Shown here piece by piece: positions 3,795-14,817 of a stretch of 64,000 bases of DNA. How positions within the stretch are numbered: the stretch's first letter is position 1; every line of letters begins with the position of its first letter. The notes beneath the pieces are model-generated. The model was given only the letters and a program-made list of their open reading frames with translations, had not been told where the DNA came from and made no database searches. Location: assembly GCF_012844225.1 (NCBI RefSeq), contig NZ_JABAGQ010000004.1:124001-188000 (forward strand), given 5' to 3'. The DNA is from Rhodococcus sp. 105337. Its GTDB lineage: Bacteria > Actinomycetota > Actinomycetes > Mycobacteriales > Mycobacteriaceae. A program made the position numbers and the translations under genes.

Positions 3795-4631
3795 TCAGCC
3801 GCTGGTCCTGGCGGCGTTGCCGGCGTCGACGGGGATCACGACGCCACTGAGGTGAACGCTGTCCTCGGCCGCCAGGAACAGCACTGCCCGCGTGACTTCG
3901 AAGGGATCGAGCCACGCGACGGGTTGCACGTGAAGGGAGCGGAAGACCGGTTCGACGTCGTCGGCTGTCGGGGATTCCAGATCCGGACGCATGTGGCCGT
4001 AGAGCGTCTCGTTGTGGATCATGGGGGTGCTGATGTTGCCGGGTGCGACAGCGTTGACCGTGATGCCGTGCCTTGCGAGATCGAGTGCGGCACTCTTGGT
4101 CAGGCCGATCACGCCCCACTTCGAGGCGGAATAGGCGGCAGTGTTGGTGCCGCCCTGACGGCCCAGCATCGAGGAGACGGTCACGATCCGGCCGTAGCCG
4201 CGTTCGATCATTCCCGGCGCGACCGCTCCGATGGTGTTGAACACTCCGGTGAGATTGCTGCCGAGGACTTCGTCCCACTGTGCGGTCGTGGTGTGCTGAA
4301 CCGATCCCATGAGCGTCACCCCCGCGTTGGCGACCGCGATATCGATCCGGCCGAACGCGGAGATACCCGCCTCGACAGCGGCGTTCATCGCGTCCCGATC
4401 CCCCACATCGCCGTGCACGACCACGGACCGTGTCCCGGCCTTCTCGACCATGCGAGCGGTCTCCGCAAGATCGTCGGCAGTGGCCATCGGGTAGCTGAGA
4501 ACGTCACGGTCCTCGCAACGATCGAGGAGGACGACGTCGGCTCCACGCTCGGCGAAGGCCACCGCGTGCGCACGGCCCTGTCCTCGTGCGGCGCCGGTGA
4601 TGAATGCAACTCTGCCTTCGAATCCGTTCAC
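3795..4631 (-). CDS. Mycofactocin-coupled SDR oxidoreductase
   Basis: A 278-residue classical SDR. It has TGAARGQGRAHA at the cofactor site, NAG (VANAGVT), catalytic Ser in VTVSSML, and YSASKWG as the YxxxK motif, ending with a SGVVIPVDAGNAA tail. The long insertion after the second beta strand (LLDRCEDRDVLSYPMAT) is characteristic of the mycofactocin-coupled SDR subfamily of actinobacteria, whose NAD(P) is thought not to exchange freely. The GTG at 4631 has GGAGGA nine bases upstream, so it is preferred over longer in-frame starts. No mycofactocin biosynthesis genes occur in this window. Substrate unknown (probably an alcohol or steroid-like compound). Confidence 0.8.
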   Translation of the reverse strand: MNGFEGRVAFITGAARGQGRAHAVAFAERGADVVLLDRCEDRDVLSYPMATADDLAETARMVEKAGTRSVVVHGDVGDRDAMNAAVEAGISAFGRIDIAVANAGVTLMGSVQHTTTAQWDEVLGSNLTGVFNTIGAVAPGMIERGYGRIVTVSSMLGRQGGTNTAAYSASKWGVIGLTKSAALDLARHGITVNAVAPGNISTPMIHNETLYGHMRPDLESPTADDVEPVFRSLHVQPVAWLDPFEVTRAVLFLAAEDSVHLSGVVIPVDAGNAARTSG

Positions 4632-4791
4632 GCGATTCCTCCAAGTCGTTCCGGTGTGCCCGTAGACCCGCCAGTAAGCCACGGGGCCCCGAACCGTCTC
4701 CCGCCGGTCTCACACATCGGGATTACCGGGCGGTGCCGAAACGGCTTTCCCAGATTTTCCGGTGGACGCTGTTGCTGTCTGCGGAACGGGT

Positions 4792-4797
4792 TATGCT
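4792..4797 (+). promoter_or_regulatory. Candidate -10 element for leader/TauE transcript
   Basis: TATGCT matches the actinobacterial TANNNT -10. It would start a transcript near 4804, giving an RNA leader of about 235 nt before the TauE/SafE start, long enough to hold the cysteine-rich ORF and two hairpins. Confidence 0.45.
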
Positions 4798-4885
4798 CGA
4801 CCGGTCGCCGCGAGCAGTGGTGACATCGACGACATCCGAGGACGGTAGCGTGCACGCGACGAGCATCGAGGCGGCTCCGGCCACC

Positions 4886-4966
4886 ATGCTTGCGCTCATG
4901 CCGTTCTGGCCTACGCGTCGTGGCGCGTGTTTCGACTGTCTGTGTTGCACCGAGGTCTGTTGCTGA
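4886..4966 (+). CDS. Cysteine-rich leader peptide (attenuator uORF)
   Basis: A 26-codon ORF whose last twelve residues are CFDCLCCTEVCC, giving six Cys codons with the final two directly before TGA. An in-frame GTG at 4850, preceded by GAGG, could extend it to 38 residues; ATG 4898 could shorten it. It resembles the actinobacterial leader family with a TRR...D...CC ending and the mycobacterial polycysteine leaders that control sulfur genes by ribosome stalling at low cysteine. The stop codon overlaps a hairpin (4965-4981), and the next gene (TauE/SafE, 5040) has its Shine-Dalgarno in a second hairpin. Cysteine-responsive control of the exporter is inferred. Confidence 0.65.
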   Translation: MLALMPFWPTRRGACFDCLCCTEVCC

Positions 4967-4981
4967 GCGGTTCGACCGCTC
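4965..4981 (+). promoter_or_regulatory. Hairpin overlapping the leader-peptide stop
   Basis: GAGCGGT (4965-4971) pairs perfectly with ACCGCTC (4975-4981) around a 3-nt loop. A ribosome finishing or stalling on the terminal Cys codons would cover or melt this stem, which makes it a plausible sensor element of the attenuator. Confidence 0.5.
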
Positions 4982-4999
4982 CTTTCGGTTCTCACCACC

Positions 5000-5039
5000 G
5001 AGCACAGCTCGGGTACTTTCGGACTTCGGAGCTCTGCTC
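5000..5039 (+). promoter_or_regulatory. SD-sequestering hairpin before TauE/SafE
   Basis: Positions 5000-5010 (GAGCACAGCTC) pair with 5029-5039 (GAGCTCTGCTC): ten base pairs with one central C-C mismatch and an 18-nt loop. The GGAG Shine-Dalgarno at 5028-5031 for the ATG at 5040 lies in the right arm, so the hairpin would block initiation unless upstream translation opens it. Confidence 0.5.
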
Positions 5040-5999
5040 ATGTTCAATTTGCTCGTATTCACCCTTGTCGGCGTCGGTGCGCAGCTCGTCGACGGCGCCC
5101 TGGGCATGGCGTTCGGCGTCACCGCGACCACCCTGCTGATCTTCAGCGGTGTCGGTGCCGCTCATGCGAGCGCGGCGGTGCACCTCGCAGAAGTCGGGAC
5201 CACGCTGGTCTCCGGCGCGTCGCACTGGCGGTTCCGCAACATCGACTGGAAGGTCGTGCTGCGACTCGGTGTTCCCGGAGCGATCGGCGCGTTCCTCGGT
5301 GCGACGGTGTTGTCGAGTCTGTCGACCGAGGCAGCGGCACCCGTGACTGCCGCCATCCTGCTGGCGATCGGCGTGTATGTCGCGCTGCGGTTCTCGGTGC
5401 GGCCGCCGGCGGTCGCGCACGCCCGGACCTCGCCGCACACGGCGAAGTTCCTCTCCCCTCTCGGCTTCTTCGGCGGCTTCGTCGACGCGAGCGGCGGTGG
5501 GGGCTGGGGTCCGATCACGACCAGCACATTGCTGTCGCGCGGCAAAACCGCCCCCCGCACCGTGATCGGCTCGGTGAGCGCCTCCGAGTTCCTCGTGGCC
5601 GTCTCGGCGAGCATCGGATTCCTCGTCGGCCTCGGGCACGAGTCCCTCGGGAATCTGCTGGTGGTCGCCGGTCTGGCTCTCGGCGGCGCCCTGGCGGCTC
5701 CGTTCGCCGCATGGCTGGTGAGCCGGGTACCGGCCACGTTGCTGGGTACTGCCGTCGGTGGGGTCATCGTCCTCACCAACGCCTACAAGCTGCTCGGCGT
5801 CGCCGACGCCGGACCGATCGCGTCGGCCTCGGTGACGTGCGCGATCGTGGGCGCCTGGATCGCGTTGCTGGCAGTGTCGTGGAAGCGTTCGCGCCTGACT
5901 CCGGCCGAGTCCTCCGGGGCGCTGGAGCGCCTCGGTGTGCCCACGCCTGTCCCCCTGCGCGAAACTGTGATCGACGGCGCGGGGAATCCGCGCCCGTAA
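5040..5999 (+). CDS. TauE/SafE family sulfite/organosulfur exporter
   Basis: A 319-residue polytopic membrane protein with about eight hydrophobic helices. It opens with the TauE/SafE signature (GVGAQLVDGALGMAFGVTAT; SAAVHLAEVGTTLVSG) and repeats the motif in the second half (GGFVDASGGGGWGPITTS), the usual internal duplication. Members move sulfite, sulfoacetate or related sulfur anions across the membrane. The ATG at 5040 has GGAG at 5028-5031, inside a hairpin that follows a cysteine-rich leader ORF, which ties the gene to sulfur or cysteine status. Substrate and direction are inferred only from family. Confidence 0.85.
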   Translation: MFNLLVFTLVGVGAQLVDGALGMAFGVTATTLLIFSGVGAAHASAAVHLAEVGTTLVSGASHWRFRNIDWKVVLRLGVPGAIGAFLGATVLSSLSTEAAAPVTAAILLAIGVYVALRFSVRPPAVAHARTSPHTAKFLSPLGFFGGFVDASGGGGWGPITTSTLLSRGKTAPRTVIGSVSASEFLVAVSASIGFLVGLGHESLGNLLVVAGLALGGALAAPFAAWLVSRVPATLLGTAVGGVIVLTNAYKLLGVADAGPIASASVTCAIVGAWIALLAVSWKRSRLTPAESSGALERLGVPTPVPLRETVIDGAGNPRP

Positions 6000-6696: not shown

Positions 6697-7392
6697 TCAG
6701 ACTGACGCGAGGGTGTCGCCGTCGACACCCCAGTGCTTCTCGAGCGCGTCCCGCCCCGCAGGACTGACCGCGAGACCACGACCGCGGCGGGCGGGCAGTA
6801 CCCAGCCGGCCGCGAGAGCGTGACTCGCGAGGACGGCGCCGAGTCGTCCTGCGAGATGTGGCCGCCGCTCCGTCCAGTCGGGACACGCCCGGCAGAGCGG
6901 TCGGCGGGACGACGCGCCTGCCGCGAGGTCGAGGCCGATGCCGCCGAGCCGGTTGAGCCCGAGATCGGTCGCCTCCAGCCCTCTTTCCTCGCACAACCAC
7001 CCGGCCTGGACCATTGCGTCGGTCAACGCGACGCCGAGACGCCCGGCGAGATGGTCGTAGCACAGCCGTGCCTGCGCAAGGTCTTCGGCCTGACGAGATT
7101 GCCGGTACGACACCACCGGAGCAGAGGGGCACAGATGGCCGAGCTGTTCGAGCGCAGCGGCGATGGTGGGACCGGCGATGCGGTAGAAGCGTTGCCGGCC
7201 GCGTACCGTGCCCACGATGAGGCCGGCGTCGCAGAGAATCGCCAAATGCCCACTCGCAGTGGATGGGCTGACCCTCGCAGCCGCAGCCAATTCCGATGCC
7301 GGCCGACTCGATCCGTCCATGAGCGCATTGAGCACGACCGACCGCGCGGGGGCCGACAGCGCGTGCCCGATCACCGAGAAGTCTTTACTCAC
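6697..7392 (-). CDS. ArsR-type winged-helix regulator
   Basis: A 231-residue protein, about twice the size of a classical ArsR. Residues 5-90 are a winged HTH (LNALMDG...SELAAAARVSPSTASGHLAIL...GRQRFYRIAG). A C-terminal domain with several Cys residues (LCYDHLAGRLG; RRPLCRACPDWTERRPHL) follows, a pattern seen in larger ArsR-family regulators of actinobacteria. The GTG at 7392 is the likely start. It is transcribed away from the OsmC gene, and a strong dyad lies between them (7413-7437), so it probably represses both itself and osmC. The inducer is unknown; Cys residues and the OsmC partner hint at peroxide or thiol stress. Confidence 0.8.
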   Translation of the reverse strand: MSKDFSVIGHALSAPARSVVLNALMDGSSRPASELAAAARVSPSTASGHLAILCDAGLIVGTVRGRQRFYRIAGPTIAAALEQLGHLCPSAPVVSYRQSRQAEDLAQARLCYDHLAGRLGVALTDAMVQAGWLCEERGLEATDLGLNRLGGIGLDLAAGASSRRPLCRACPDWTERRPHLAGRLGAVLASHALAAGWVLPARRGRGLAVSPAGRDALEKHWGVDGDTLASV

Positions 7393-7412
7393 AACACAAC
7401 TGTAGAACGGGG

Positions 7413-7437
7413 AAAGTTCGGCGCACGCCGAAACTTT
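7413..7437. promoter_or_regulatory. Candidate operator of the ArsR/OsmC pair
   Basis: AAAGTTCGGCG (7413-7423) and CGCCGAAACTTT (7426-7437) form a nearly perfect dyad with one extra base in the right arm. It covers the expected -35 area of the osmC promoter (-10 TACGGT at 7445-7450) and lies directly upstream of the regulator start. Confidence 0.6.
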
Positions 7438-7456
7438 GCAGGGATACGGTGCCGAC

Positions 7457-7915
7457 ATGACTCGACACCACTACAGCGCGCATATCGAATGGCAGGGCAC
7501 GACAGGAGCAGGGTACGGCGGGTATTCACGCACTCACACCGCCACCGCTCCACCGGCAGCCCAGCAACTTTCCCTCAGTGCTGATCCGGCGTTCCGCGGG
7601 GACGCGGACCTGCTGGACCCCGAGCAGCTCCTGGTCACCGCCGCCTCGTCCTGCCAACTGCTCTCGTTTCTCGCGGTTGCTGCTCAGGCCGGCCTCGACG
7701 TGCTCTCCTACGAGGACGCCGCCACTGCGGTGCTCGATACCGGTAGCGCCCCTCCGCAGATAGCCGAAATCCGGCTCGCACCCATGATTCGCGTCGCTCC
7801 GGGAACCGATCACGAGAAGGTCCGCACCGCTGCCGCCACCGCGCACCGCGGGTGCTACATCGCGAACACGCTGAAGTGTCCCGTTCAGGTCGAGGTGACG
7901 GTGATCGACGCATGA
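7457..7915 (+). CDS. OsmC family peroxiredoxin-like protein
   Basis: A 152-residue OsmC/Ohr-fold protein. Both redox cysteines are visible: the first in the helix TAASSCQLLSFLAVA (about residue 63), the second in HRGCYIANTLKCPV (about residue 134). These enzymes reduce organic hydroperoxides in the cytosol as homodimers. The ATG at 7457 lies six bases after a TACGGT -10, so the mRNA is probably leaderless. The stop overlaps the next gene by the ATGA arrangement, coupling the ACT-domain protein to it. Regulation is probably by the divergent ArsR-type protein through the dyad at 7413-7437. Confidence 0.85.
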   Translation: MTRHHYSAHIEWQGTTGAGYGGYSRTHTATAPPAAQQLSLSADPAFRGDADLLDPEQLLVTAASSCQLLSFLAVAAQAGLDVLSYEDAATAVLDTGSAPPQIAEIRLAPMIRVAPGTDHEKVRTAAATAHRGCYIANTLKCPVQVEVTVIDA

Positions 7916-9612: not shown

Positions 9613-10673
9613 CGCTCGCCGCCGTCACCCGTGGACACCGCGCTGCCGACGTTCGTAGCCGTAGCGCCGGCAGACTCTTGTTCGCCCACACCGTCGAACG
9701 CATCGAGAATTCGTTGCGCCGCCAGAGCCGCGGTGAGCGATCCGTCTTGCACCGCCGCCTCGACCTCGCCCCGGATCGCCTTGACCCGCGGTGCGGATTC
9801 GAGACGCCGCAGCAGCTGGTCGTGCACCATCGTCCAGGTCCAGTCGATCTGCTGACGACGCCGGTTCTCTTCGAATCGGCCCGCCTCGGTCAGCACGCGA
9901 CGGTGCTCGAGGACGGTGTCCCAGAACGTGTCCAGGCCGCTGCCTTCGAGCCCGCTCATCGTGATGACCGGGGGTTTCCACAACGCGTCGTGCGGGTGCA
10001 CGAGCCGCATGGCCCCGGCGAGTTCCCGGGCGGCGACGCGGGCGTCGCGCTCGAACTTGCCGTCGGCCTTGTTGACGGCAACGAGATCGGCCAGTTCGAG
10101 CACGCCCTTCTTGATGCCCTGCAACTGGTCGCCGGTGCGCGCGAGTGTCAGGAAGGTGAAGCAGTCCACCATGTTCGCGACCGTCACCTCGGACTGCCCG
10201 ACACCGACGGTTTCGACGAGAATCACGTCGAATCCGGCCGCCTCGAGCAGCACCATGGTTTCGCGGGTGGCCTTCGCGACACCGCCGAGTGTTCCGGCGG
10301 TCGGCGACGGCCGGATGAAGGCATCGCGTTCCACCGACAATCTGGCCATGCGGGTCTTGTCACCGAGAATCGATCCGCCGGTGCGGGTCGACGACGGGTC
10401 GACCGCCAGGACCGCCACGCGGTGACCCTTGCCCAGCAGGTACATGCCGAGGTTGTCGATGAACGTCGATTTGCCGACACCGGGAACGCCGGTGATGCCG
10501 ACCCGGATCGCCCCGCCCGCCTCCGGGAGCAGGCGCAACAGCAACTGCTGCGCCTGCTCCCGATGGTCGTTGCGGGTGGACTCGACCAGGGTGATCGCCT
10601 TCGCCACGGCGGCTCGCTGTCCCGCGAGCACCGCGTCGGCGAGAGCGTCGGTATCGACCGGAGGTCTGCCCAT
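9609..10673 (-). CDS. meaB: Methylmalonyl-CoA mutase-associated GTPase MeaB
   Basis: A 354-residue G3E-family P-loop GTPase. Residues 56-70 carry the Walker A (GITGVPGVGKST), followed by AVDPSSTRTGGSILGDKTRM (switch region), ETVGVGQSE and NKAD (VAVNKADG) for guanine recognition. A C-terminal helical dimerisation arm completes it. MeaB gates adenosylcobalamin delivery to methylmalonyl-CoA mutase and protects it from inactivation. It starts seven bases after the mutB stop and overlaps the next gene by GTGA. Confidence 0.95.
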   Translation of the reverse strand: MGRPPVDTDALADAVLAGQRAAVAKAITLVESTRNDHREQAQQLLLRLLPEAGGAIRVGITGVPGVGKSTFIDNLGMYLLGKGHRVAVLAVDPSSTRTGGSILGDKTRMARLSVERDAFIRPSPTAGTLGGVAKATRETMVLLEAAGFDVILVETVGVGQSEVTVANMVDCFTFLTLARTGDQLQGIKKGVLELADLVAVNKADGKFERDARVAARELAGAMRLVHPHDALWKPPVITMSGLEGSGLDTFWDTVLEHRRVLTEAGRFEENRRRQQIDWTWTMVHDQLLRRLESAPRVKAIRGEVEAAVQDGSLTAALAAQRILDAFDGVGEQESAGATATNVGSAVSTGDGGER

Positions 10674-10680
10674 GTCCGGT

Positions 10681-12927
10681 CTATCCCTGGACGTGGTGGC
10701 CGAGCTGGGCTGCCAGCTTCGTGAGCAGGCCGGCGGCCGCGTCGGCGATCACGGTTCCGGGCGGGAAGATCGCCGCGGCACCTGCCTGGTAGAGCTCGTC
10801 GAAATCCCCGGGCGGAATGACGCCGCCCACCACGATCATGATGTCCTCGCGGCCCACCTCGGCCAGTGCCTGCTTGAGAGCAGGAACGAGAGTGAGGTGA
10901 CCCGCGGCCAACGACGACACACCGATGACGTGCACGTCGTTGTCGGCCGCCTGCTGGGCGACCTCTTCGGGCGTCTGGAACAGCGGTCCGACATCCACAT
11001 CGAAGCCGAGGTCGGCGAACGCGGTGGAGATCACCTTCTGTCCGCGGTCGTGGCCGTCCTGTCCCATCTTCGCGACGAGGATGCGGGGCCGGCGGCCCTC
11101 CTCTTCAGCGAACTTCTCGACGAGTTCCGTTGCCGTGGTGATGTTGGTCGCCTTTCCGGCCTCGTCGCGGTACACCCCGCTGATCGTGCGGATCTCGGCC
11201 TGGTGCCGCCCGTAGACCTTCTCGAGGGCGTCGGAGATCTCTCCGACAGTCGCTTTCGCGCGTGCCGCGTCGATCGCGAGGGCCAGCAGGTTGTTCTCCA
11301 TGCCGCCGTCGGCCGACGCGGCGGCGCGGGTCAGCTCGGCGAGCGCGGCCTTCGTTGCCGCCTCATCGCGGTCACTGCGAAGCCGCTCGAGCTTCGCGAT
11401 CTGCTCGGCGCGCACCTTGGAGTTCTCGACCTTGAGCACCTCGATGGTGTCAACCTCGTCGGGAACATACTTGTTGACGCCGATCAGCGGCTGGCGCCCG
11501 GAGTCGATACGGGCCTGGGTGCGCGCGGCAGCTTCCTCGATGCGCAACTTCGGGATGCCTTCGGAGATGGCCTGTGCCATTCCGCCGGCTTCCTCGACCT
11601 CGGCGATGTGCGCGCGGGCCCGGTTGGCGAGCTCGTGGGTGAGCCATTCGACGTAGTGCGAGCCACCCCACGGATCGATGGGCCGGGTGGTGCCCGACTC
11701 CTGCTGCAACAACAGCTGCGTGTTGCGGGCGATACGGGCGGAGAAGTCGGTCGGCAACGCGATCGCCTCGTCCAGCGCGTTGGTGTGCAGCGACTGGGTG
11801 TGACCCTGTGTCGCGGCCATCGCCTCGACGCAGGTACGCGTGACGTTGTTGAACACGTCCTGCGCGGTCAGCGACCACCCCGAGGTCTGCGAGTGGGTGC
11901 GCAGCGACAGCGACTTGGCGGACTTCGGTTCGAACTTTTCGACCAGTTCGGCCCACAGGAGCCGGCCGGCGCGGAGCTTGGCCACCTCCATGAAGAAGTT
12001 CATTCCGATCGCCCAGAAGAACGACAGCCGTGGTGCGAACTTGTCGATGGCCATGCCTGCGTCCAGCCCGGCACGGATGTACTCCACACCGTCGGCGAGG
12101 GTGTACGCCAGCTCCAGATCGGCGGTCGCTCCGGCCTCCTGGATGTGGTAGCCGGAGATCGAGATGGAGTTGAACTTCGGCATCTTCGCGCTGGTGTACG
12201 AGAAGATGTCGGAGATGATCCGCATCGACGGCTTCGGCGGATAGATGTAGGTGTTGCGGACCATGAACTCTTTCAGAATGTCGTTCTGAATGGTTCCGGC
12301 GAGTTGTTCGGGCTTGACGCCCTGCTCTTCCGCGGCGACGACGTACAGCGCGAGAATCGGCAGCACCGCGCCGTTCATCGTCATCGACACGGACACCTGG
12401 GACAGATCGATGCCGTCGAAGAGTTGCCGCATGTCGAGGATCGAGTCGATCGCAACACCGGCCATACCGACATCGCCCTGGACGCGCGGATGGTCGGAGT
12501 CGTAGCCGCGGTGGGTCGCGAGGTCGAAGGCGACCGACAGGCCCTTCTGCCCGGCCGCGAGATTGCGGCGGTAGAAGGCGTTGGACTCCGCGGCGGTGGA
12601 GAATCCGGCGTACTGGCGGATGGTCCACGGCTGGTTGACGTACATCGTCGGGTAGGGGCCGCGCACGAAGGGCGCGATCCCCGGGTAGCTGTCGAGGGGG
12701 TAGCCCTCGGCGACGATCGCGTCGCGGTCCGCCCGGGTGTAGACCGGCTTGACGTCGATCCCCTCGGGCGTGGACCACACCACTTGGTCCTTGGTGTACA
12801 GGTTGGCGGTGGCGACGGATTCGGTGAGCGCGTCGGCCTGCTCCGGAGTGGGAGCGGACGGCACCGGCGCCGCCGGGTCGGTCAGCGGGATGTCGGCGAA
12901 GCTGCCGATCTCGTGTTCGATACTCAC
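10681..12927 (-). CDS. mutB: Methylmalonyl-CoA mutase large subunit
   Basis: A 748-residue catalytic subunit of the adenosylcobalamin-dependent mutase that interconverts succinyl-CoA and (R)-methylmalonyl-CoA in propionate, odd-chain and branched-chain catabolism. The TIM barrel (about 80-430) opens with [29 protein letters not shown]. The C-terminal B12-binding domain (about 610-748) has the base-off motif DGHDRG ([12 protein letters not shown]) plus GVSSLAAGH and [11 protein letters not shown]. The GTG start directly follows the mutA stop with no gap (TAAGTG). Full length and intact. Confidence 0.97.
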
Positions 12928-14817
12928 TTACGCTCCCAGGGTGTCGAGCAGGTCGGTCAGCGCGGCAACCGCGTCGATACGGGCGGTGAGGAAGCCGTCG
13001 GGACGGCTCTCGCCCTGCACATCGCCGACGGCTTTCTCCGGTCCGGCGAGCAGCACGGTCGTGATTCCCGCGGCGCGCAGCGCGGCGGTGGCGGTCGCGG
13101 CTTCCTGGCCGTACCGGGCATCGGTGCCGCAGAGGATCGCGATACTCGCGCCGGAGCCGCTGACGGCGGCGGCGACGGCATCGCCCGTGAGATCGAGCGG
13201 ACCCGGGTTGACGGTCTCGATGCCGCCCGATGCCATCAGGTTCGCGGCGAAAGTGCTGCGGCCGTTGTGTTCTGCGACGGGTCCGAGCGGTGCGAGCAGC
13301 ACCTTCGGCCGGGCGCCGTGTGCGGCGAGGTAGACGTCCGAGCGGTCACGCAGCGCCTCGAACGGCGCCGCATAGCGCGCGGCGAACGTGCCGGCGTCCG
13401 CGGCGCCGGCGGGGAGCGGGGCCTCGGCGAGATTGGGGAACTCGTTGATGCCGGTGAGCGCGGTCCTGCGATGCGCGATGTCGTCTTCCCTGTGCGCACG
13501 GGTCGCGGCGATGCGTTCGGCGACCAGCCCCGACTCGAGGGCGGCGCGGTATCCACCGGCAGCTTCGATCTCCTGGAAGAACTCCCAGGCCTTGGCGGCA
13601 ATCTGCGCGGTGAGTTCCTCGACGTACCAGGATCCGGCGGCGGGGTCGAGAACGCGGCCGAGGTTGGATTCCTCGAGGAGCAGCAACTGGGTGTTGCGGG
13701 CGATGCGTGCGGCGAACCCTTCGGACACGCCGAGCGCGCCCGTCGGCAAAGCGGCATCGAACGGCAGCACGGTCACGGCGTCGGCACCGCCGATGCCCGC
13801 GCCGAATGCGGCGAGGGTGGTGCGCAGCATGTTCACCCAGGGGTCGCGCTGGGCCATCATCGCGGCCGAGGTGACTGCGTGCTGGGGAGCGTTGCCGGCT
13901 TCCGGTGCGCCGACCACCTGGGCGATACGTGCCCACACTTGCCGGCCCGCGCGGAACTTCGCGATGGTCTGGAACTGATCGTCCGTCGCAGCCAGGCGGA
14001 ACTCGATCTGTCCGAGCGCCTGCTCCGGCGAGAGTCCGGCGGTGATCAGTTCGCGAACGTACGCGAGACCGGCGGCGACCGAGGCGGCGAGTTCCTCGGC
14101 GTCCGAGGCACCGGCGTCATGGAATGCGGTGCCGTCGACGGTGAGGGCCCGAACCGTGCCGGTTCGCTCTGCCGCCACGACCGCGAGTTCGACCGCTTCC
14201 GGCACGGTGGTGTCCGCGCGGCCCGAGAATTCGCTGGTCAGCGGCGCGGCACCGAGAAAGAGGCGTACGGCATCCGGGTCGGCGAGGTCGCTGCGGGAAT
14301 CGACGACCGCGTACAGCGCTGCGGTGGCAGCAACGGTCTCGGCCCGGGCGTCGAGTGTCACCGGCGCGAGGTCGAGCAGTACGTTCTCGAGGGCTGCGCC
14401 GAGAGACTCGACGGGAAGGTCGGTGCCGCCGACACGCAGCCACAGTGCACCGACGCCGTTTTCGAGGCCGTTGAGGATGCGCTCGTTGACCTTGGTGGCG
14501 GTGCCGTAACCGGTCGCCGCCGCGTCGCCGCCGAACTGCGCGGACACCAGCCAACCGGTGGTGACGTCGCGGGTGGAGGAACCTCCGCGTACGAACGGGA
14601 ACTCACCGGGCAACGGGACTTCGGGACGTTCGTCGCGAATGCCGTAGAGGGGGTTTACGGTGACACCGTCGTACGTCGTGGTCTCGAGCAGTCGCTGCGG
14701 CTCGGGGCCGAGTTCTGCCGGGTCGACACGCCGAGACTTCGCGAGCACTCCCGCGACCGCGTCCTGCCACTGCGCATATGCGCGCGCGGCGTCCTCGGCT
14801 TCTGCAGCTAATGACAC
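12928..14817 (-). CDS. mutA: Methylmalonyl-CoA mutase small subunit
   Basis: A 629-residue non-catalytic subunit of the heterodimeric actinobacterial mutase. The barrel part (RNTQLLLLEESNLGRVLDPAAGSWYVEELT) mirrors MutB. The C-terminal flavodoxin-like domain lacks the DxHxxG cobalamin motif, as expected. The GTG start at 14817 has GGAGGA seven bases upstream. First gene of mutA-mutB-meaB-yhhN. A -10 candidate TAGCAT (14918-14913, minus strand) and a 15-bp dyad just downstream of it suggest repression. Confidence 0.95.
   Translation of the reverse strand: MSLAAEAEDAARAYAQWQDAVAGVLAKSRRVDPAELGPEPQRLLETTTYDGVTVNPLYGIRDERPEVPLPGEFPFVRGGSSTRDVTTGWLVSAQFGGDAAATGYGTATKVNERILNGLENGVGALWLRVGGTDLPVESLGAALENVLLDLAPVTLDARAETVAATAALYAVVDSRSDLADPDAVRLFLGAAPLTSEFSGRADTTVPEAVELAVVAAERTGTVRALTVDGTAFHDAGASDAEELAASVAAGLAYVRELITAGLSPEQALGQIEFRLAATDDQFQTIAKFRAGRQVWARIAQVVGAPEAGNAPQHAVTSAAMMAQRDPWVNMLRTTLAAFGAGIGGADAVTVLPFDAALPTGALGVSEGFAARIARNTQLLLLEESNLGRVLDPAAGSWYVEELTAQIAAKAWEFFQEIEAAGGYRAALESGLVAERIAATRAHREDDIAHRRTALTGINEFPNLAEAPLPAGAADAGTFAARYAAPFEALRDRSDVYLAAHGARPKVLLAPLGPVAEHNGRSTFAANLMASGGIETVNPGPLDLTGDAVAAAVSGSGASIAILCGTDARYGQEAATATAALRAAGITTVLLAGPEKAVGDVQGESRPDGFLTARIDAVAALTDLLDTLGA

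Follow-up and report, generated by a model that had tools for sequence, protein, structure and literature searches.

The 64,000-nucleotide stretch of DNA analyzed here (the window), which belongs to contig 29 of a 4.46 Mb genome, contains a gene for a TauE/SafE-family transporter that is preceded by a short open reading frame (ORF) and two predicted hairpins (Table 1). The short frame ends C-F-D-C-L-C-C-T-E-V-C-C-stop with six cysteine codons (TGT TGT TGT TGC TGT TGC), and the transporter gene starts 73 nt after its stop codon. A first-pass annotation had described it as a 26-codon ORF opening at ATG 4886, with a wider start at GTG 4850 raised as a possibility. The frame, its ending and the six cysteine codons stand as described, while the start and length do not: judging from the alignment of related leaders, the frame most likely begins at GTG 4850 and spans 38 codons. 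An ATG (10 leaders) or GTG (8 leaders) is aligned with this codon in all 18 leaders from the same genus, and peptide conservation begins there. ATG 4886 was rejected as the start, its methionine (peptide position 13) occurring in just 2 of 64 leaders.

Table 1. Features of the leader-transporter locus (positions within the window)
Feature	Position	Strand	Basis
Candidate -10 box TATGCT of the leader-TauE transcript	4792..4797	+	Conservation in same-genus loci
Probable Shine-Dalgarno site GAGGA of the leader ORF	4838..4842	+	Read from sequence
Leader ORF VHATSIEAAPATMLALMPFWPTRRGACFDCLCCTEVCC-stop, 38 codons plus TGA	4850..4966	+	Start GTG 4850, stop TGA 4964-4966
Conserved core FWPTRRGACFDCLCC, codons 19-33	4904..4948	+	Residues invariant across 64 leaders
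TGT codon of invariant C32	4943..4945	+	TGT in every leader read
Hairpin H1 GAGCGGT-TCG-ACCGCTC, 7 bp, overlapping the stop codon	4965..4981	+	Predicted fold; compensating changes, g1 versus g24
Second fold, pairing the Shine-Dalgarno site in this species	5000..5039	+	Predicted; matched by shuffles among relatives
GGAG, Shine-Dalgarno site of TauE/SafE	5028..5031	+	Sequence
TauE/SafE (PF01925) transporter, 319 aa, CysZ-like	5040..5999	+	Pfam E 3.8e-36

No promoter-like site was returned by a generic sigma-70 scan of 4680-5060, so that support for the candidate -10 box comes from conservation, TATGCT beginning 53-59 nt 5' of the leader start at 18 of 18 same-genus loci. A transcription start downstream of 4966 would have counted against the first-pass annotation's own reading, but the conserved candidate box lies upstream of the leader. 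Purine-rich stretches like the leader's GAGGA were seen by eye at several same-genus loci, and no Rfam element matched 4600-5200 at E <= 1. Elsewhere in the window, a gene for an ArsR-type regulator (6697-7458, minus strand) adjoins an OsmC-family gene (7436-7915, plus strand), with a slight overlap between the starts of the two listed frames, and a 1460-aa open frame (10429-14811, plus strand) lies opposite a 748-aa frame and part of a 354-aa frame, and is most likely an artefact of high GC content.

Conservation of the leader and its transporter gene

A leader profile (A1) searched against 401 genomes of the family produced 64 strong matches (E < 1e-9), the next appearing only at E 0.0025. 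These comprise 18 leaders from the window's own genus (g1) and, from the other family genera compared, 21 from g24 and 25 from g29; every one of the 64 FWP leaders sits 53-73 nt 5' of an orthologous TauE/SafE gene. The orthologue itself is found at E <= 1e-110 in 77 of the 401 genomes, including all 18 of g1, and the 64 of them that fall in g1, g24 and g29 are exactly the 64 leader-bearing genomes. Upstream of the orthologue in the other 13 genomes (11 in g23, one in g16 and one in g28), the FW motif is missing. Comparison of these genomes shows that the leader belongs to one gene, TauE/SafE, in three genera. Within a 24-codon core, the in-frame ratio pN/pS is 0.21 in g1, 0.27 in g24 and 0.17 in g29, as against 1.28-3.81 in the two shifted frames; because low values are confined to the leader frame, the ORF is very probably translated, with selection acting on its peptide.

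The residues F19, W20, P21, R23, R24, D29 and C32 are invariant in all 64 leaders, and F28 is present in 63. The conservation of cysteine codons among orthologous leaders, on which the first-pass annotation had placed weight, is thus found at C32, kept in 64 of 64. The number of cysteines between F19 and the stop varies widely, with one in 14 leaders, two in 21, three in 13, four in 3, five in 4 and six in 9, and ranges by genus from 3-6 (g1, in which 9 of the 18 leaders have six) to 2-3 (g24) and 1-2 (g29). With counts running from one to six and a single cysteine in 14 of the 64, polycysteine was rejected as the defining feature. What the aligned leaders conserve is the FW-RR-FD-C motif, FWP[ST]RR..(F/Y)D..C, together with UGU at C32, rather than a string of cysteines.

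The codon at C32 is TGT in all 64 family leaders, and the equivalent codon is TGT in 19 of 19 and 9 of 9 leaders in two sets from outside the family; TGT is accordingly fixed in 92 of the 92 leaders read, although the leaders share ancestry and neither these codon counts nor the conservation counts are independent draws, and the pattern persists outside the family. The remaining leader cysteine codons are TGC in 77 cases versus TGT in 40 (40 of 117), and TGT is likewise the minority codon in 34 genes of the window, where it accounts for 27 of 103 cysteine codons.

The transporter had been called an exporter by the first-pass annotation. Its Pfam family, PF01925, carried the older name DUF81. 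Homologues in g3 (50-61% identity) directly follow a CbiX-type gene at all five loci examined, and three of three upstream frames scanned there match the CbiX type. This order corresponds to that of cysY-cysZ in Corynebacterium glutamicum, where, according to PMC1266029, a strain without cysZ fails to grow on sulfate or sulfite at 2 mM and grows again at high sulfate; the same paper describes CysZ as a likely sulfate permease and DUF81 protein, encoded in an operon that responds to the sulfur source and to cysteine. Owing to the CysZ likeness and the matching gene order, we prefer uptake, and by this analogy import under sulfur limitation fits the transporter better than sulfite export does. 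A phmmer search returned no close solved structure at E <= 0.01.

Two further observations concern the region upstream of the transporter in other genera. At most of the g23 loci (L175-L184 and L023), a block like GTTCACGGTGATCGCAACC, identified by eye and perhaps an operator, lies 5' of the transporter in place of the leader. At three g4 loci (L186-L188), a palindrome AGAC-N6-GTCT that resembles the McbR site is found upstream of TauE.

Hairpins and predicted stall geometry

The hairpin H1, reported by the first-pass annotation as overlapping the leader stop, is present with its seven pairs. A stem anchored at the stop beats shuffles (p <= 0.05) at 17 of 18 g1 loci, 21 of 21 g24 loci and 4 of 25 g29 loci; these shuffles, like those used for the Shine-Dalgarno (SD) site, preserve nothing but base composition, and loops were permitted to be longer in the g29 test than in those of g1 and g24. 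Its arms differ yet stay complementary, as GAGCGG/CCGCTC, GACCAGC/GCTGGTC and GAACCGGC/GCCGGTTT, the last with one G-U pair. The covariation that had been suggested as a check is seen in H1, with compensating changes between g1 and g24. Comparative folding shows that H1 starts at or beside the leader stop and is conserved in two genera, g1 and g24, and that it is weak in g29. Scoring H1 for terminator-like character gave 1 found against a shuffle mean of 0.4, the U tract after the hairpin appears by eye to be poor or missing at many loci, and no competing antiterminator to H1 was found.

A ribosome covers about 12 bases beyond the first base of its A-site codon. Counted from the first base of C32, the stop codon lies at 6 bases in g24 and in two g1 species, at 12 or 15 in g29 and at 21 in 16 of the 18 g1 leaders, that of the window included, while the best g29 stem begins at 4-9 bases. 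A ribosome positioned at C32 would on this geometry overlie the greater part of H1's first arm in g24, g29 and the two g1 species. In the window, five codons (TEVCC) separate the C32/C33 region from the stop, and with the stop 21 bases past C32, a pause at C27, C30, C32 or C33 would leave the ribosome before the hairpin; to reach H1 it would have to be at C37, at C38 or at termination. The window geometry weakens plain masking of H1 at this locus, and such masking fits g24, g29 and the two g1 species better.

A second fold, at 5000-5039, had been proposed to bury the GGAG of the transporter gene and to act as a switch. The fold itself is predicted in the window, pairing three of the four GGAG bases, but such pairing is nothing special among relatives. 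In predicted folds of the intergenic region, pairing takes up three or more of the SD's four bases at 16 of 18 g1, 20 of 21 g24 and 1 of 25 g29 loci, but the frequency is matched by shuffles that leave the SD where it is (mean 0.89 in g1, 0.91 in g24). The mean fold z versus shuffles is +0.57 in g1, +0.69 in g24 and -0.11 in g29; the lowest values among the loci listed are those of the window, -1.6, and of its nearest relative (L033), which folds differently, -1.4. In the window, exposing the SD and start codon is predicted to cost 9.0 kcal on the naked leader, 9.0 with a ribosome at C32, 8.5 at the last cysteine pair and 9.3 at the stop, a flat profile that goes against the proposed switch. 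The g1 mean drops by 4-5 kcal, from 12.3 kcal naked to 7.5 with the ribosome at C32 (7.5-8.6 over the occupied states), and the change is about 1 kcal in g24 (7.3 versus 6.5) and g29 (8.3 versus 7.4), all of these energies being based on the best-match SD, which is poor at many g29 loci. With a marked drop in the g1 mean and none in the window, SD unmasking would be at most a g1 trait, and one that is unpredicted for the window. Burial of the SD at 5000-5039 was rejected as a conserved switch, since pairing is equal to that of shuffles and the window energies do not switch.

Related leaders and a possible sensing mechanism

Similar leaders are not confined to the family. A 24-column profile (A2) searched at E <= 0.001 in 394 genomes of the class Actinomycetes matched 61 places in 56 genomes, 50 of these places being outside the family. 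We read 29 of the 50, and 28 carry a leader of the form L..FW..R[RQ]...FD..C (L253 being the one without). According to Pfam, the gene 3' of the leader is a cysteine dioxygenase (CDO_I) at L234 and L254, a luciferase-like monooxygenase (Bac_luciferase) at L238, an SBP_bac_5 gene at L246 and a Trans_reg_C gene at L226 and L243; at L234 the dioxygenase gene is followed by one read by eye as rhodanese-like. Downstream genes at other outside-family loci resemble these by sequence, as judged without Pfam, and no clear downstream gene was seen at L231 (a contig end), L240 or L245. The gene order at these loci shows that leaders of this type also stand before different genes, several with a link to sulfur, in further families of the class. 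A broader profile (A4) matched each of the 18 g1 genomes once at E <= 0.05 and had matches in 29 of 35 chosen genomes, the six misses being genomes picked for missing a TauE-linked leader; a second, weak match appeared in one of the 35 (G250, E 0.015). Among 266 genomes of the phylum, A4 matched 9 at E <= 1e-4, all within this class. A literature search, with subscription papers mostly outside it, returned no paper containing FWPSRR, FWPTRR, FWPSRQ, FWSSRR or FWNSRR, and no report of a leader-peptide element with TauE, a sulfite exporter or cysteine dioxygenase.

We consider it reasonably probable that the element acts in cis as a leader peptide that responds to cysteine and controls a sulfur transporter of the TauE/SafE family. 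When Cys-tRNA is short, the ribosome would pause at the UGU codon of C32 and, in g1, also at the added cysteine codons, and the conserved FW-RR-FD segment, by then in the exit tunnel, may help the pause. The pause would alter whether H1 forms, and the changed H1 would lead to more transporter and thereby to uptake of sulfate or sulfite by the cell; candidate points of control are H1 as a terminator, Rho, or translation initiation. The comparative anatomy is shown, whereas the stall, its signal and the direction of the response are inferred. Of the cysteine attenuation originally suggested for this locus, the cis-acting leader, an invariant cysteine codon and a hairpin at the stop are retained, and the polycysteine run, with one to six cysteines among relatives, is no longer essential. 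Several observations count against this explanation: single-cysteine leaders (14 of 64) offer few codons to a pure codon-starvation sensor, H1 is weak in g29 (4 of 25), the poor or missing U tracts and the lack of a competing antiterminator speak against simple termination at H1, the SD energies of the window do not switch, and the cysteine dioxygenase genes behind related leaders elsewhere would be better suited to an excess of cysteine.

The main rival, which we regard as unlikely, is an arrest peptide whose nascent FW-RR-FD-C chain would respond directly to a sulfur metabolite, be it cysteine, sulfite or a persulfide, independently of Cys-tRNA charging, and would open TauE at sulfur excess for sulfite export. 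It would account for an amino-acid motif that is better conserved than the number of cysteines and for the existence of single-cysteine leaders, and its best hint is the motif before two cysteine dioxygenase genes, a catabolic target. A peptide-only sensor, however, would have no need of the TGT codon that is fixed at C32 in 92 of 92 leaders, and the monooxygenase and substrate-binding targets, together with the CysZ likeness, point to starvation genes. There is still less to commend an ordinary translation attenuator of the mycobacterial polycysteine type, in which the SD hairpin at 5000-5039 would be the switch. The six cysteine codons of the window leader and the fold over its SD suit such a device, as does the prediction for g1 that the SD is better hidden in the naked leader than in a ribosome-occupied one (12.3 versus 7.5-8.6 kcal), but SD pairing in relatives is no commoner than in shuffles, the cysteines fall to one, SD opening in the window is nearly constant across ribosome states (8.5-9.3) and the NCBIfam leader models do not match. 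Least probable is that the ORF encodes a small functional protein, such as a transporter partner, or serves translational coupling only, with no sensor: the amino-acid constraint over the 24-codon core and the fixed neighbourhood would agree with this, but the same motif precedes unrelated proteins in other families, the cysteine codon lies close to a stop and hairpin, and 53-73 nt is a long distance for coupling.

Returning to the cysteine-responsive leader, we tentatively extend it to all FW leaders, which may form an unrecognized family, L..FW..R[RQ]...FD..C with a fixed UGU, of nascent-chain-assisted sensors: the conserved chain would prime the ribosome, one cysteine codon would gauge Cys-tRNA, and the device would have been placed before transporters, monooxygenases, cysteine dioxygenases and regulators in several families of Actinomycetes. 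Actinobacterial cysteine leaders are usually read as counters of cysteine codons, and here one codon can suffice, with a fixed motif beside it. If the motif is needed, attenuation by tRNA charging and nascent-chain arrest would be a single mechanism in these leaders. The leader also suggests that TauE/SafE proteins in this clade are importers induced on starvation, and the FW motif provides an annotation handle for sulfur-regulated genes that are missed by current NCBIfam leader models.

Comparison with known leader peptides

Arrest peptides such as SecM and TnaC have a conserved amino-acid motif upstream of the regulatory codon. The FW leaders are similar in that their motif is conserved near the presumed stall site; they differ in the motif itself, and both the ligand and the stall are hypothetical here.

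The polycysteine attenuators of Mycobacterium smegmatis, leaderless small ORFs, are likewise reportedly proposed to provide cysteine-responsive cis control of downstream sulfur genes (Canestrari et al. 2020). Compared with these, the window leader has a candidate -10 box 53-59 nt 5' of its start, which argues against a leaderless transcript, and an SD-like stretch; the FW leaders also vary in their number of cysteines, and their target is TauE/SafE. A cysteine run at the 3' end, as in the mycobacterial attenuators, is seen in the window with its six cysteines, while 14 of the 64 leaders have one and 21 have two. Small ORFs before cysA2, Rv0485 and nirA are described by Shell et al. (2015; PMC4633059), in whose text the word TauE is absent. 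The cysteine leaders before cys operons reported by Seliverstov et al. (2005; PMC1262725) have a run of cysteine codons near the stop and no clear terminator; no conserved terminator-capable hairpin was found there, in contrast to H1, which is conserved in two genera. In Rhodobacterales, uORFC-8-2 before cysS combines conserved cysteine codons with a downstream hairpin, and differs, according to PMC8632094, in having an intrinsic terminator with a U run, two tandem cysteine codons and a dominance of UGC, and in belonging to a different phylum.

Three NCBIfam models, NF042934 (cis_reg_atten), NF042933 (Ms5788A) and NF042936 (Ms4527A), represent cysteine leader peptides, and the window FW leader matches none of them: no family was found at E <= 1, and nine other FW leaders (two plus seven) matched no model at E <= 10. 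Four non-FW control leaders all match NF042934, three of them over its cut-off. The window leader resembles the NF042934 type in being a short actinobacterial ORF, taken as translated from its pN/pS, with a cysteine codon near its end and a sulfur gene downstream. The conserved parts differ, LV.R..VDL.R......C versus L..FW..R...FD..C, and a common profile of A2 with the NF042934-type set (A3) was rejected, hhalign having aligned one column with a probability of 0.2. In the window's own genome, NF042934 has seven matches at E <= 1, of which one exceeds the cut-off; sub-cut-off matches also occur in 6 of 14 control genomes, so that a weak match says little by itself. Among these seven, five (L280-L284, E 3e-5 to 0.0022) read by eye as NF042934-like cysteine leaders; a Trans_reg_C-like regulator follows one of them and a sulfite/nitrite-reductase-like gene another, both named by eye.

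A cysteine leader before TauE/SafE had been presented as an extension of the known cases, and in this respect the locus is not unique. In g9, a leader containing (V/I)DL.R.ASMLC, with TGT, was found in 10 of 10 upstream regions of TauE examined and also at L028, and two genomes of another family (f16; L027 and L030) have NF042934-type peptides before TauE-type genes, which makes TauE-type genes behind cysteine leaders a recurrent arrangement. The g16 genome (L019) has a 12-codon poly-cysteine ORF, MQSSVAFRCCCQ followed by a stop, 45 nt 5' of the same transporter; with TATAGT seven bases 5' of its ATG, this ORF is probably leaderless. Given this different poly-cysteine ORF in g16 and the NF042934-type leader of g9 before the same transporter, it seems that cysteine leaders were recruited on more than one occasion.
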